Source: Candidatus Poribacteria bacterium (GTDB lineage Bacteria; Poribacteria; WGA-4E; WGA-3G). Taken from it: a DNA stretch of 51,080 nucleotides. The notes under the pieces were generated by a model, which saw only the letters and a list, made by a program, of their open reading frames with translations, was not told the DNA's origin and ran no database searches. Shown piece by piece: positions 11,249-25,074 of this stretch; the stretch's first letter is position 1, and each line of letters starts with the position of its first letter. The stretch lies in NCBI GenBank assembly GCA_009839745.1, contig VXPE01000006.1, forward strand, positions 1 through 51,080, written 5' to 3'. A program made the translations under genes and the position numbers.

Positions 11249-11549
11249 ATGCGAAGCATATTTTTTCGCCGAAATCGCAAGTTAAGCAGATTGTGCAGCT
11301 GATATGAATTTTAAGACGAAACACTTTCTCTTATCCGCGAAATCCACGTCATCCGTGATAATCCGAGATTTGCGGCGTACTCGCCCAAATGCGACGTGCA
11401 TTCAGACAATTAACGCGTTTCGTTCGCCCATCGAATTTTCCTATCAAATCTTAATTTTTTTTACACTTCCTTTGCAAAAATGTGTTACAATGGTAACAAA
11501 TCTCCAAGATACAAATCCAAAATTTTGCGCTTGCATAGGAGAAGTTGTA

Positions 11550-12305
11550 ATGCCAAAAGTTATCTTTGTATTGTCACTGCTATTCTCACTCCTCATTATT
11601 ACCAACCTCAGTATCGCCAACGTCGCAGAAGACGGACTCGTCGCTTACTGGCCCTTTGATGAAGGCAAAGGCAAAGAAGCCATAGACGTGACAGGCAACG
11701 GGCATGATGGGGAATTTCACGGTAAGCCGAAATGGGTTGAAGGAAAATTTGGCACCGGACTCGAATTTAACGGTGTAGACGATCATGTCATCGTCGCAGA
11801 CGATCCCGCCTTCGCAATCGAGGAAAATATCACCCTCATGACATGGTTCAGTCCAGACGATGACCTCACCGGGCACCGCTTAATGAGTAAAAATAACTCC
11901 ATCTTCGTCATCTTCGACTTCGGCGACAAAAATAGTATCGACTTTCTCGTCAAACCGAACAATACCTTCGCACAATCCACAACAACCGATTGGAAAGTGG
12001 GCGAGTGGTATCACTTCGCAGGGACGTTCGATGGAAAGACGATGAAGGTTTACATAAACGGCGAACTCGAAGGCGAAGCTGCTAACAATGTTCCAATTGC
12101 TCCGTCCGGTTTAGAACTCTGGATTGGGGGCGATGATCTCGGCAACGCCACCGACCACTTCCCGGGTAAAATTGATGAAGTCCGACTCTATGAGAAAACC
12201 TTGAGCGAAGCCGACATCCAAAAGGTCATGGAAACCCCACAGGATGTGGAAGCGCGTGGTAAACTCGCCACAACATGGGGCAAACTAAAGACAGGAATCA
12301 GATAA
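11550..12305 (+). CDS. Secreted LamG (concanavalin-like lectin) domain protein 1
   Basis: A 251-residue exported protein: a signal peptide over residues 1-25 (hydrophobic FVLSLLFSLLIITNLS, cut near SIA), then one LamG/jelly-roll domain. The domain starts with LVAYWPFDEGKGKEAIDVTG, continues with FNGVDDHVIVADDPAF and GEWYHFAGTFDGKTMKVYIN, and ends with GKIDEVRLYEKTLSEADI, the usual LamG strand order. After the domain comes a short linker and the tail GKLATTWGKLKTGIR, shared with two other LamG proteins and the TolB-like proteins of this window. The ATG at 11550 is preferred because TAGGAG lies upstream and the signal peptide begins there. It probably binds carbohydrate or protein outside the cytoplasm; the ligand is unknown. 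Confidence 0.85.
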   Translation: MPKVIFVLSLLFSLLIITNLSIANVAEDGLVAYWPFDEGKGKEAIDVTGNGHDGEFHGKPKWVEGKFGTGLEFNGVDDHVIVADDPAFAIEENITLMTWFSPDDDLTGHRLMSKNNSIFVIFDFGDKNSIDFLVKPNNTFAQSTTTDWKVGEWYHFAGTFDGKTMKVYINGELEGEAANNVPIAPSGLELWIGGDDLGNATDHFPGKIDEVRLYEKTLSEADIQKVMETPQDVEARGKLATTWGKLKTGIR

Positions 12306-18103: not shown

Positions 18104-18445
18104 TTAGTTAGCAACTTGCGCGCTGAAACCTACATCTGTAACCGCTTTCACGAGCGCGTCTTTCTCAACCTTGTCCTTCTCAATTTTCACCACAGCTTTA
18201 TTTTCTTCCATAGAAACACTGACGACCTCAGTCACACCGGTAAGTTTTGTGAGTGCATCCTGCACTTTGCTGGTACACGCGCCTCATGTCATACCGGTCA
18301 CAGCCAGCGTTACTTCTTCAATGGCTGGTGCTGCTGTTTGGGTTGGTGCCTCTTCTGCTTCTTTCTTTGCTGTGTCTGCACACGCAACCACAAATAACAG
18401 TGCTGCGAAACAGACAAATAGCATACTCACATTTAACTGACGCAT
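18104..18445 (-). CDS. Selenocysteine-containing HMA-domain lipoprotein 1
   Basis: A 113-residue protein when TGA 18284-18286 is read as selenocysteine (residue 54). Residues 1-22 are a lipoprotein signal (VVAC, lipid Cys22), followed by a short Ala/Glu/Thr linker. The HMA domain starts at VTLAVTGMT-Sec-GACTSKV, where copper and mercury carriers have GMTCxxC. It continues with LTGVTEVVSVSMEENKAVVK and LVKAVTDVGFSAQV, the complete beta-alpha-beta-beta-alpha-beta order. Homology runs unbroken across the TGA, and a GG-loop hairpin lies 18 bases after it. The role is probably metal or metalloid binding, or redox, outside the cytoplasm. AAGGGGAT before the ATG supports this start. A close paralogue lies directly upstream. 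Confidence 0.85.
18253..18265 (-). promoter_or_regulatory. Candidate bacterial SECIS hairpin 1
   Basis: On the coding strand GTGCA-GGA-TGCAC forms a perfect 5-bp stem starting 19 bases after the TGA. The apical GG and the UGCAGG..UGCA context closely resemble the E. coli fdhF SECIS apical loop that SelB binds. The paralogue has the same 13 bases at the same distance. Confidence 0.75.
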
Positions 18446-18464
18446 ACGTTTAATCCCCTTATGT

Positions 18465-18489
18465 GTAGGGACGATCTCTCGATCGCGCC
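18465..18489 (+). repeat. GTAG-footed REP-like hairpin, imperfect
   Basis: GTAG followed by a CGATC-tct-CGATCG-type palindrome. It lies just upstream (on the minus strand) of the first HMA gene start. Confidence 0.35.
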
Positions 18490-18575
18490 TCTTCAACTTC
18501 AATGCTGATGGTTGAAACTTTATCCAATTAAGGCTGCAAGAGAAATAGGGTTTGCAACCTGCTTATATAGAGAAA

Positions 18576-18593
18576 GGGTGGGGAACCCCACCC
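18576..18593 (-). terminator. Terminator after HMA gene 2
   Basis: GGGTGGGG-AA-CCCCACCC is a perfect 8-bp stem. On the minus strand it is followed by TTTCTCTATATA, and it lies 16 bases after the stop of HMA gene 2. Confidence 0.7.
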
Positions 18594-18608
18594 TCCTCCG
18601 ATTTAGCC

Positions 18609-18998
18609 TTATTGAGCGACTTCGGCACTGAAGCCGGCGCCTTGAACTGCAGAAGTGAGATCGGCAGCCTGCACTTTACCTTTCTCAACCTTCACAACAG
18701 CCGTGTTATCCGTTGAAGAAACGCTTACGACTTCAGAAACACCGGTGACTTTACTGAGTGCATCCTGCACCTTACTGGTACACGCGCCTCACGTCATCCC
18801 TGTAACGTTCAGTGTAACTTCTTCAACGGCGGCTTCCATCATGTCGCCATCCGTCTTCATGTCGTCGGATTCCATTTCAGTGCTTTCCATAGCAGCTGTA
18901 GTGGTTTCAGGCATCTCTGCTTCCTTGCTAATCAGACCACAGCCTACCATGAATACGAAAGCAATAAGACAAATAAGCGATAATCTTACGATATGCAT
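18609..18998 (-). CDS. Selenocysteine-containing HMA-domain lipoprotein 2
   Basis: A 129-residue protein with TGA 18789-18791 read as Sec70. The lipobox FMVGC gives lipid Cys20. A Met/Asp/Glu-rich linker (MESTEMESDDMKTDGDMME) could itself bind metal and is longer than in the paralogue. The HMA domain has VTLNVTGMT-Sec-GACTSKV, LSKVTGVSEVVSVS and LTSAVQGAGFSAEV. The nucleotide stretch around the Sec codon is nearly identical to HMA gene 1 while the rest has diverged, as expected if Sec insertion constrains it. AAGGAGG precedes the ATG and a good promoter lies at 19028-19056. The two genes are a tandem duplication, separated by a terminator and a REP-like hairpin. Confidence 0.85.
18758..18770 (-). 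promoter_or_regulatory. Candidate bacterial SECIS hairpin 2
   Basis: Coding-strand GTGCA-GGA-TGCAC, identical in sequence and distance from the TGA to the hairpin at 18253-18265. Confidence 0.75.
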
Positions 18999-19027
18999 GG
19001 TTAACCTCCTTGAATTACTTAAGTGTT

Positions 19028-19161: not shown

Positions 19162-19905
19162 TTACCTCCGGTGGACGTCTAAAAACGTAAAGACCTTCTG
19201 AATCCGTTGTAATTGCTTCTGAAACGCAGCAGCCCGCTCAAAGTGGAGAGTCTCCGATGCGCTATCCCGTTTTGCAACCAGACGTGTTTGCACTTTTTCA
19301 TACTCCCCATCCAGCAAATCAACGATGTCTGTAATCATTTCTCCGTAGCGTTCGCGCGTAATGAGTGCCGCACAAGGGGCGTCGCACCGTTTCAGATCGT
19401 ACTGAAAACAGGCACGAAATCCCAGTATCGGTGTAATTTCACCTTCGCATGTCCGAACCGGAAAGATCCGCTGTAAAACGTCAATCGCTTCATCTGTCCA
19501 TCGCCGACTCGACAACGGACCGAAATATCGCGCACCATCCGGTTGGGTCTCGGACACTCTTTCAAGGCGCGGAAATGCCTCGCCGACATCTATCCGAATA
19601 TACCAAGAGGCACGTCCGAATTTCATAGCCGTATTATAGGAGGGTTGATATTCTTGGATGAGTCGCGATTCTAAGAAGAGTGCTTCCTGCTCCGAACGAC
19701 AAATCTGATATCGAACGTCTGTCGTCCATCGGATAAGCCGTTTAATTTTGTTTGGACGTTTTTTGACCTTATGGAGATAGGAACGGACACGCTTCCGTAG
19801 ACATTTCGCCTTGCCGATATAGAGGATTTTCCCGGAAGCCCCGCGAAAAAAATAAACGCCGGGGTCCAAAGGGGCATCGGCTACCATTTCTTGCGTTAGC
19901 ATCAT
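19162..19905 (-). CDS. Short UvrC-like (GIY-YIG plus UVR) nuclease
   Basis: A 247-residue protein matching only the N-terminal half of excinuclease UvrC. The GIY-YIG domain spans about residues 12-95 (DPGVYFF, ILYIGKAKCLRKRVRSYL, EALFLESRLIQEYQPSYN). A Cys-rich middle follows (RACFQYDLKRCDAPCAALI), then a UVR motif (SASETLHFERAAAFQKQLQRIQK) for UvrB contact. The RNase H-like 5'-incision domain and helix-hairpin-helix of full UvrC (about 600 residues) are absent. This is the architecture of Cho, which makes only the 3' incision in nucleotide excision repair, and the frame ends cleanly. It lies alone between HMA gene 2 and a LamG gene. Confidence 0.82.
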   Translation of the reverse strand: MMLTQEMVADAPLDPGVYFFRGASGKILYIGKAKCLRKRVRSYLHKVKKRPNKIKRLIRWTTDVRYQICRSEQEALFLESRLIQEYQPSYNTAMKFGRASWYIRIDVGEAFPRLERVSETQPDGARYFGPLSSRRWTDEAIDVLQRIFPVRTCEGEITPILGFRACFQYDLKRCDAPCAALITRERYGEMITDIVDLLDGEYEKVQTRLVAKRDSASETLHFERAAAFQKQLQRIQKVFTFLDVHRR

Positions 19906-20033: not shown

Positions 20034-20777
20034 ATGAAACAAATATATTGGCTTGTTATCATTGGGATCTTGTGTGTAGGAGTAAATCCGCTTTCAGCAG
20101 AGTTGTTGGACGATGCAGTCGGTATCTGGCTTTTTGACGAAGGCAAAGGTGGTGTCGCAGCGGATACATCAGGCAACGGGAACGACGGCGCAATTACCGG
20201 TGCGAAGTGGGCAGAGGGTAAATTTGGTGACGCGTTAGAATTTGAACCACCGCAGGTTGTAACCGTTGAAGCCTCTGATAGTCTCAATTTCAAGAACCAG
20301 ATGACGATCGCAACGTGGGTCTATATGAATAAAGGGGTCTCGGATACCGCTATCCGGAGGAACGGTTCCTATCTATTGGAAGTTCAGTCCGGAGGTGAAA
20401 GGGTACCAGGTGGTTATGTCTTCGGCATTTGGTCGGGCGGTGGGTTTACTGGGGGTGTTTGGGGAAAAACCGTCGTTGAACCCGAAAAATGGTATCACAT
20501 TGTTGGGCTCTACGACGGCAGTGAAATGAAGCTTTATGTAAATGGCACGCTTGAATCTGCCGTTAAACAGGGCGGTGATGTAGACCAGGCAGGTGAACTG
20601 TTGTTCGGCACCTTTGGCGGTGAAAAGTTTATCGGCAGATTGGACGAGGTCGTCTTCTTTAACCGCGGTATCACGGAAGCTGAGATTACCGAGTTGATGA
20701 AGGGTGTGGAAGCCGTCCTGCCTGTCTCTCCAAACGGTCTGTTGACAACCACTTGGGGACGGCTCAAGGATCGCTGA
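20034..20777 (+). CDS. Secreted LamG domain protein 2
   Basis: A 247-residue exported protein. The signal peptide covers about residues 1-22 (KQIYWLVIIGILCVGVNP, cut near LSA). The LamG domain begins AVGIWLFDEGKGGVAADTSG, and has WYHIVGLYDGSEMKLYVNGT and GRLDEVVFFNRGITEAEI. The tail is VLPVSPNGLLTTTWGRLKDR. This tail matches the TolB-like proteins (ALPVSPQ..LLTT.WG) more closely than the other LamG proteins do, so it bridges the two groups. CAGGGG lies before the ATG. It heads a run of genes on the plus strand leading into the PhyH-selenoprotein operon. Confidence 0.85.
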   Translation: MKQIYWLVIIGILCVGVNPLSAELLDDAVGIWLFDEGKGGVAADTSGNGNDGAITGAKWAEGKFGDALEFEPPQVVTVEASDSLNFKNQMTIATWVYMNKGVSDTAIRRNGSYLLEVQSGGERVPGGYVFGIWSGGGFTGGVWGKTVVEPEKWYHIVGLYDGSEMKLYVNGTLESAVKQGGDVDQAGELLFGTFGGEKFIGRLDEVVFFNRGITEAEITELMKGVEAVLPVSPNGLLTTTWGRLKDR

Positions 20778-24315: not shown

Positions 24316-25074
24316 CTATCGGGCTTTCAGATTCGCCCAAGTCGTCGCTAACTTACCTTTTGCAGAGACAGCCAACGCAGTCTCCCAGCCTTCCTCCGCA
24401 AGGAGTTGAATGTCCTCCTCTTCTAACGCCACGCCTTTTTTGGTAATAAAAACCTCATCCAATCCACCAATGAGATTTTCGCTGCCCCAGCCGCCGAACT
24501 TCAGAATAGCCGGATTATCCATGTTCGCCCCAACGTTCCGTTCTGTCTCCTTTTTGCCGTTCACATACAAAGAGATAACCCCTTTTTTGCGAACAGCCAC
24601 GGTGTGATGCCAACCGTTTCCGACAATGTCGGTTTTACCATCGTCGATGTGGTTTCCGCCACCTTCAAAGATGAAGAAACCGGTATCTCTATCGATACTT
24701 GAACTCATCGCCCAGAATCCGGCACCACCGTTCCGCTTGATGACGACGTATGCATCTTTATTTTCCGAGTTCATCCAACATCCGACAGTAAAATCGTCAT
24801 CTTCAAAGTTGAAGAGGTCGTTATGCTCAATAACGACATATTTCGGGCTACCATCAAATTCCAATGCTTTACCGAACTTCCCATTTATCCATTTAGGTCC
24901 GTCAAATTCCCCATCGTTTCCGTTCTCGGTGAAATCTTTAGTAACGGCTCCTTTACCTTCATCAAAGAGCCAGATACCCGCAAAGTCGTTGATGTTAATT
25001 TCGGCATAACCAAATGAGATAGCGATGAGACTGACACAGATGCTCCACAATATTGTGAATCCACAAAATTTCAT
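24316..25074 (-). CDS. Secreted LamG domain protein 3
   Basis: A 252-residue exported protein: a signal peptide (FTILWSICVSLIAISFGYA), then a LamG domain with FAGIWLFDEGKGAVTKDFTE, WHHTVAVRKKGVISLYVNGK and GGLDEVFITKKGVALEEEDI. It ends with TALAVSAKGKLATTWANLKA and one Arg. The tail follows the same pattern as LamG proteins 1 and 2. The ATG lies one base after the stop of the upstream oxidoreductase gene, so the pair is one transcriptional unit. The domain carries no catalytic residues I can identify, and it probably binds a ligand at the cell surface. Confidence 0.86.
   Translation of the reverse strand: MKFCGFTILWSICVSLIAISFGYAEININDFAGIWLFDEGKGAVTKDFTENGNDGEFDGPKWINGKFGKALEFDGSPKYVVIEHNDLFNFEDDDFTVGCWMNSENKDAYVVIKRNGGAGFWAMSSSIDRDTGFFIFEGGGNHIDDGKTDIVGNGWHHTVAVRKKGVISLYVNGKKETERNVGANMDNPAILKFGGWGSENLIGGLDEVFITKKGVALEEEDIQLLAEEGWETALAVSAKGKLATTWANLKAR

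Follow-up and report, generated by a model that had tools for sequence, protein, structure and literature searches.

The window analysed here (51,080 nucleotides, positions 1 to 51,080 of contig VXPE01000006.1) comes from Candidatus Poribacteria, a sponge-associated bacterium. Two neighbouring ORFs of its minus strand (18998-18609 and 18445-18104) contain exactly one in-frame TGA each, and with the TGA read through, both products present a complete PF00403 HMA domain (43.0 and 40.2 bits; Pfam cut-off 24.8). The TGA occupies the first metal ligand of GMT-U-GAC, giving the loop Met-Thr-Sec-x-x-Cys, which is of the MxCxxC type with Sec for the first Cys. The motif GTGCA-GGA-TGCAC follows 18 nt past the TGA, exact in both genes. 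An earlier note, made from the sequence alone, had claimed the completion of the domain by readthrough, the placing of the TGA and this motif, and all three were confirmed in both genes.

The upstream gene starts at ATG 18998, preceded by AGGAGG. The downstream gene probably starts at ATG 18445, with AGGGG ahead, rather than at TTG 18502; counted from the first TTG, its product would have 132 aa. Both N-termini are hydrophobic and terminate, by eye, in a lipobox-like Cys, which is invariant in 22 aligned rows. The products are probably small, secreted, lipid- or membrane-anchored HMA domains.

Table 1. Features of the gene pair in the window and of related loci.
Feature	Position	Strand	Remarks
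Upstream gene, predicted exported HMA selenoprotein	18609..18998	-	129 aa with TGA as Sec; stop codon included
Shine-Dalgarno AGGAGG, upstream gene	19005..19010	-	
Putative signal peptide, lipobox-like FMVGC, upstream gene	18939..18998	-	By eye; Cys invariant in 22 relatives
In-frame TGA, upstream gene	18789..18791	-	Codon 70; predicted Sec, first ligand of GMT-U-GAC
HMA domain PF00403, upstream gene	18630..18815	-	Pfam; AlphaFold pLDDT >90
SECIS-like hairpin GGUGCAGGAUGCACU, upstream gene	18757..18771	-	6 pairs (outermost G-U), loop GGA, 5-bp core 18758-18770
Downstream gene, predicted exported HMA selenoprotein	18104..18445	-	113 aa from ATG 18445 with TGA as Sec; stop codon included
Shine-Dalgarno-like AGGGG, downstream gene	18455..18459	-	
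Putative signal peptide, lipobox-like FVVAC, downstream gene	18380..18445	-	By eye; Cys aligns with the invariant one
In-frame TGA, downstream gene	18284..18286	-	Predicted Sec, first ligand of GMT-U-GAC
HMA domain PF00403, downstream gene	18125..18310	-	Pfam
SECIS-like hairpin AGUGCAGGAUGCACU, downstream gene	18252..18266	-	6 pairs, loop GGA, 5-bp core 18253-18265
Array L050	6319-7518	-	3 Sec + 2 Cys domains
Array L051	6065-7102	+	3 Sec + 1 Cys domains
Array L052	6649-8076	+	4 Sec + 1 Cys domains; adjoins a pair, divergent
Array L053	6347-7342	+	3 Sec + 1 Cys domains
Array L054	6011-7165	+	3 Sec + 1 Cys domains
Fusion gene of the same genome, contig C41	L181:4831-6426	-	Planctomycete-type cytochrome c + WD40 + Sec-HMA

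Decoding of the in-frame TGA

The selenocysteine reading of the earlier note depended on a machinery for decoding, and the genome encodes all of selA, selB, selC and selD. The selC gene specifies a tRNA-Sec with anticodon TCA and lies immediately behind selB, and selD itself holds a TGA. In the 85 Poribacteria genomes, to which the distribution data refer, selB exceeded its cut-off in 76 and selA in 72.

A search of these genomes for the signature TGA-N6-TGY-N9-GTGCRG-N3-GCAC, with the reversed pattern as control, revealed matches in 73/85, including all genomes of the window's order. None of the 12 genomes outside the order presented it, several of these having selA and selB. In family f5 (two genomes), selA was unmatched, selB was below the cut-off and the signature was absent. 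The reversed pattern was found in 0 of 85 genomes, which rules out a chance TGA.

Homologues occur in 80 of the 85 genomes, nearly all with exactly one TGA per domain; the loci matching over the full length belong to Candidatus Poribacteria and are 64–93% identical. At the site itself, the collected domains have TGA (148) or TGT/TGC (10) and nothing else within the family, seven further motif matches being plainly non-HMA and set aside from the count. Only Cys alternates with TGA, and random residues at the site, which the earlier note had named as contrary evidence, are ruled out. An in-frame UGA in a conserved domain, with Cys alternating in homologues, is the pattern by which selenoproteins are recognised.

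TGA is the normal stop elsewhere and standard annotation would truncate both genes, as would be the case if the TGA were a true stop followed by an untranslated HMA part; alternatively, TGA could be a sense codon throughout the genome. Both readings are extremely improbable. Past the TGA and outside the hairpin, the sequence is under purifying selection (P0002 versus its closest homologues, dN 0.04–0.16 and dS 0.23–1.1), the same TGA recurs in 148 domains and the genome carries selABCD. In addition, TGA terminates other genes of the window; the genetic code is therefore standard, and a genome-wide code change is ruled out. A pseudogene is likewise ruled out by the purifying selection 3′ of the TGA. 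Viral origin was also considered and rejected: the pattern gave ten matches in IMG/VR, none of them in an HMA frame and all chance-like.

The hairpin downstream of the TGA

The published bSECIS model has a stem of 4–16 bp, a loop of 3–9 nt, G in loop positions 1–2, a spacing of 16–37 nt from the UGA and a minimum free energy of <= -7.5 kcal/mol (PMC13188914). The present hairpin agrees with this geometry: its stem has 5–6 bp, its loop 3 nt with an invariant G, and the distance from the UGA to the apical loop is 23 nt, the 18-nt start being kept in 148 TGA domains. Its energy is -5.5 kcal/mol alone; if the flanks are included and the hairpin is imposed on the fold, the values are -10.4 and -8.6 kcal/mol. 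Left unconstrained, the two window copies are predicted to fold differently, and this was counted, together with the energy of the hairpin alone, against the interpretation preferred below. With the stretch up to +12 assumed to be occupied by the ribosome, both window copies fold best into the hairpin, and 140/148 copies have its core in their best fold. RNAalifold on all 148 copies returned precisely the small hairpin and no conserved lower stem beyond it; an Rfam scan of the pair region gave no SECIS match.

Codon use shows constraint on the stem. The stem-forming Val codon 7 is GTG in 147/148 TGA domains, against 344/1564 Val codons nearby; the stem-forming Ala codon 10 is GCA in 146/146 domains having Ala, against 188/778 elsewhere; and loop base 1 is G in 148/148, with G or U next in 147/148, although the 148 domains share ancestry and are not independent samples, so that the stem-codon argument is one of pattern, not of Fisher statistics. 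One double compensatory change was found, at locus L066 (position 6339, minus strand), where the stem is fully compensated as GTA..GTA with Ala changed to Val. Its sister L146 (position 5408, minus strand) is half-way, with a G-U pair (GTG..GTA), and represents an evolutionary intermediate of the stem. In eight domains, an A-U pair became G-C, together with Gln to Arg.

In Cys-form domains the hairpin is weakened or lost, even within single genes. The Cys domains of the multi-domain arrays described below each lack at least one stem pair, the peptide VQDAL still being kept in 4/5 arrays, while every Sec domain of the arrays has the hairpin. This comparison of Sec and Cys domains within one gene is the best control for constraint on the hairpin.

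The SECIS hairpin that the earlier note had placed just after the UGA thus fits the bacterial model in spacing, loop and stem, and carries codon-level and compensatory constraint. With selABCD and a site restricted to Sec and Cys, it supports the central claim of that note, and the TGA is near certainly read as selenocysteine in both genes. As far as sequence can tell, the UGA, a SECIS-like element under selection, the Sec machinery, the HMA domain and an export signal are all supported.

Arrays, fusions and dispersed copies in Poribacteria

The finding is wider than two genes, since a third Sec-HMA gene of the same genome lies on another contig. Most genomes of the window's family present the tandem pair. 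A second architecture, in relatives, consists of HMA arrays in one ORF: they contain 3–4 in-frame TGA codons, each with a hairpin of its own downstream, and end in Cys domains (Table 1). Two arrays, L050 and L054, are on contigs of 5.5 and 5.0 Mb, which makes a collapsed or chimeric assembly unlikely. According to a 2026 inventory, a minor fraction of the selenoproteins of prokaryotes contains 2–3 Sec, the highest number listed being three (PMC13188914); the four predicted Sec in one frame exceed this maximum. The arrays are the most surprising part of the family.

In a third architecture, of about 540 aa, a PSCyt1 cytochrome c and WD40 repeats precede a C-terminal Sec-HMA domain. Besides the copy of the window's own genome, it was found at L057, L058, L059, L164, L165 and L195-L199, and more distant genera have it in Cys form (L166-L168). 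The fourth architecture comprises dispersed Sec-HMA lipoproteins with GMDUGGCAEKVRSA (L182-L192 and L200; genomes G051, G054, G057, G058 and G063). G051 has seven signature matches of this type beyond its pair and its cytochrome-WD40 copy. Several dispersed copies of G051 are preceded by a similar in-frame repeated sequence, as if borne by a repeated element.

The arrays resemble animal selenoprotein P in being secreted with several Sec per chain, but fold and decoding are unrelated, the arrays having a hairpin per UGA and one Sec per HMA domain. A function in selenium storage or transport, with the arrays as selenium stores, would suit exported chains with 3–4 Sec and the several dispersed single-domain copies per genome. 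We consider such a function quite improbable, since every domain keeps the metal loop, the last array domains retain Cys with a conserved motif of their own, and most genomes have single-Sec proteins only. On balance, we propose that this order of Poribacteria has a family of extracytoplasmic Sec metal sponges, composed of tandem and dispersed lipoproteins, the cytochrome-WD40 fusion and arrays with three or four Sec, each UGA having its own hairpin.

Selenoproteins with HMA domains are already known, namely a Sec-form MerP in GOS, NF041115, NF045683 and a UxxC form of an E1-E2 ATPase. Beyond these known forms go the tandem pair of exported UxxC proteins, the arrays with 3–4 Sec in a single ORF, and the fusion of cytochrome, WD40 and Sec-HMA. 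In the openly accessible literature, no paper joining Poribacteria and selenoproteins was found; most subscription papers lie outside this search, and an earlier description is possible. Poribacteria are a phylum known from marine sponges. In a study of sponges, most of the symbiont bins, from various phyla, were reported to have SelA and SelB (PMC5649159). Where a gene caller treats TGA as a stop, such genes are cut short, so that many genomes of sponge symbionts probably contain unrecognised members of the family. If the arrays are produced, up to four UGAs would be recoded in one bacterial message, against the two or three inventoried, and they would be a natural system for the study of repeated Sec insertion.

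Relation to known HMA proteins and possible function

The AlphaFold model has pLDDT >90 across the HMA domain, with the order of strands and helices expected for this fold. The best Foldseek match was MerP (1osd; TM 0.92 over the target, rmsd 1.3, 44% identity), and in sequence-profile comparison the nearest solved sequences were HMA domains of copper ATPases and MerP, with CopZ domains also among the nearest.

The window proteins fell below every curated HMA-subfamily (NCBIfam) cut-off compared. MerP (TIGR02052) shares with them the exported single HMA domain and the closest solved fold, but they score 46.6 and 46.7 bits, where the cut-off is 92.55, and have a lipobox-like Cys. A search of the genome for MerT gave no match, but neither did the positive control. 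The Sec-form MerP reported in GOS (2 sequences in 1 group; PMC2398784) is likened to the pair by description, not by sequence. NF041115 (UxxU_metal_bind), the best NCBIfam match of the downstream gene at 63.0 bits, also has Sec at the metal ligands of an HMA-like domain, but its motif is UxxU and that of the pair UxxC, and the scores (63.0 and 49.7 bits) are under the cut-off of 95, which the arrays surpass solely through the summing of five domains. The UxxU metal-binding family appears as a putative mercuric reductase in Table 1 of PMC13188914, where a cation-transporting E1-E2 ATPase with UxxC is listed too; the latter shares UxxC with the pair and is a heavy-metal protein, but a membrane transporter. 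NF045683, a MerT/CopZ fusion-like heavy metal transport selenoprotein, has a Sec-HMA/CopZ domain and handles metal, but requires the MerT membrane part; the pair corresponds to the HMA part only (46.0 and 36.6 bits; cut-off 375). The CopZ metallochaperone (NF047957; cut-off 85) is cytosolic, while the pair is predicted to be exported and reaches 56.5 and 55.1 bits.

The earlier note had suggested a trap for Hg, Cu or Ag, or a redox carrier, and both are proposals here too. We favour, with moderate confidence, the interpretation of the pair as exported selenoproteins that form a MerP-like soft-metal trap with one selenolate and one thiolate. In each mRNA, the UGA and hairpin would allow SelB with tRNA-Sec to decode the UGA as selenocysteine. 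The product would be an HMA domain of small size, secreted and probably anchored in the membrane, with the loop Met-Thr-Sec-x-x-Cys. Outside the cytoplasm, its selenolate-thiolate pair would hold a soft thiophilic ion, such as Hg(II), Cu(I), Ag(I), Cd(II) or an organometal. The ion would be buffered or trapped, as MerP does with two thiols, and the arrays of relatives would increase the capacity.

The cellular distribution of the motifs argues for this interpretation: in the same genome, a P-type ATPase with an N-terminal HMA domain and a small cytosolic CopZ-like protein have CxxC, whereas each of the three exported HMA proteins has UxxC. We infer an extracytoplasmic soft-metal site with selenolate in place of one thiolate. 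The preference of mercury and cadmium for selenium is established chemistry (e.g. PMC12820964, PMC8763373). The chemistry is testable by comparing the extracytoplasmic selenolate-thiolate with the internal dithiol of the same cell for Hg, Cu and Ag. Against a metal trap counts the absence of metal-resistance genes around the locus: no metal-resistance, mer, cuproenzyme or thioredoxin-like genes were seen among the conserved neighbours of the pair. The syntenic neighbours include a phytanoyl-CoA dioxygenase and a GIY-YIG/UVR protein, which provide no metal context. Selenocysteine in the actual protein, a metal as ligand, and trapping over delivery would be the steps that go beyond the genes themselves.

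The main rival is a redox role, in which Sec-x-x-Cys would form a selenenylsulfide and the protein would serve outside the cytoplasm as a reductant or a peroxidase-like carrier, with the HMA domain as a scaffold only. In selenoproteins, the redox motif is usually UxxC, the fusion with PSCyt1 and WD40 brings in a cytochrome-c-like domain, and the near-exclusive Sec at the site is also compatible with this role. We regard it as unlikely, given a metal-binding HMA domain with an intact Met-x-U-x-x-C loop, solved homologues that are metal carriers, and a neighbourhood in which no thioredoxin-like partner was seen. The pair could also be metal delivery chaperones, whose copper would go to an exported cuproenzyme or the cytochrome-WD40 protein. 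That copper ATPase and CopZ domains rank among the closest solved sequences, and that a cytochrome fusion is known, would fit such chaperones, which are nevertheless very unlikely: no cuproenzyme was found in the conserved neighbourhood, and binding by selenolate should be too tight for ready hand-over.

Some other proteins near these loci deserve mention. The GIY-YIG protein with a UVR motif (19162-19905, minus strand) is free-standing, resembles the N-terminal half of UvrC, and lies immediately upstream of the pair, with synteny across 35 loci. A protein of 109–116 aa with two CxC/CxxC zinc-ribbon-like motifs, unmatched in Pfam, adjoins the pair in ten loci (L061:5709-6038, plus strand, and relatives). 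In one genus, a highly conserved exported protein of about 400 aa, also unmatched in Pfam, is encoded downstream of the pair (L140:6104-7309 and L056:6945-8216, both plus strand); in two species (L136, L139) it is fused to Sec-HMA, and its structure model has pLDDT 34. Elsewhere in the window, three paralogous LamG-like secreted proteins (11304-12305 and 20034-20777, plus strand; 24316-25074, minus strand) present a common C-terminal tail, G-x-L-x-TTW-x-x-LK, which is perhaps a sorting signal.
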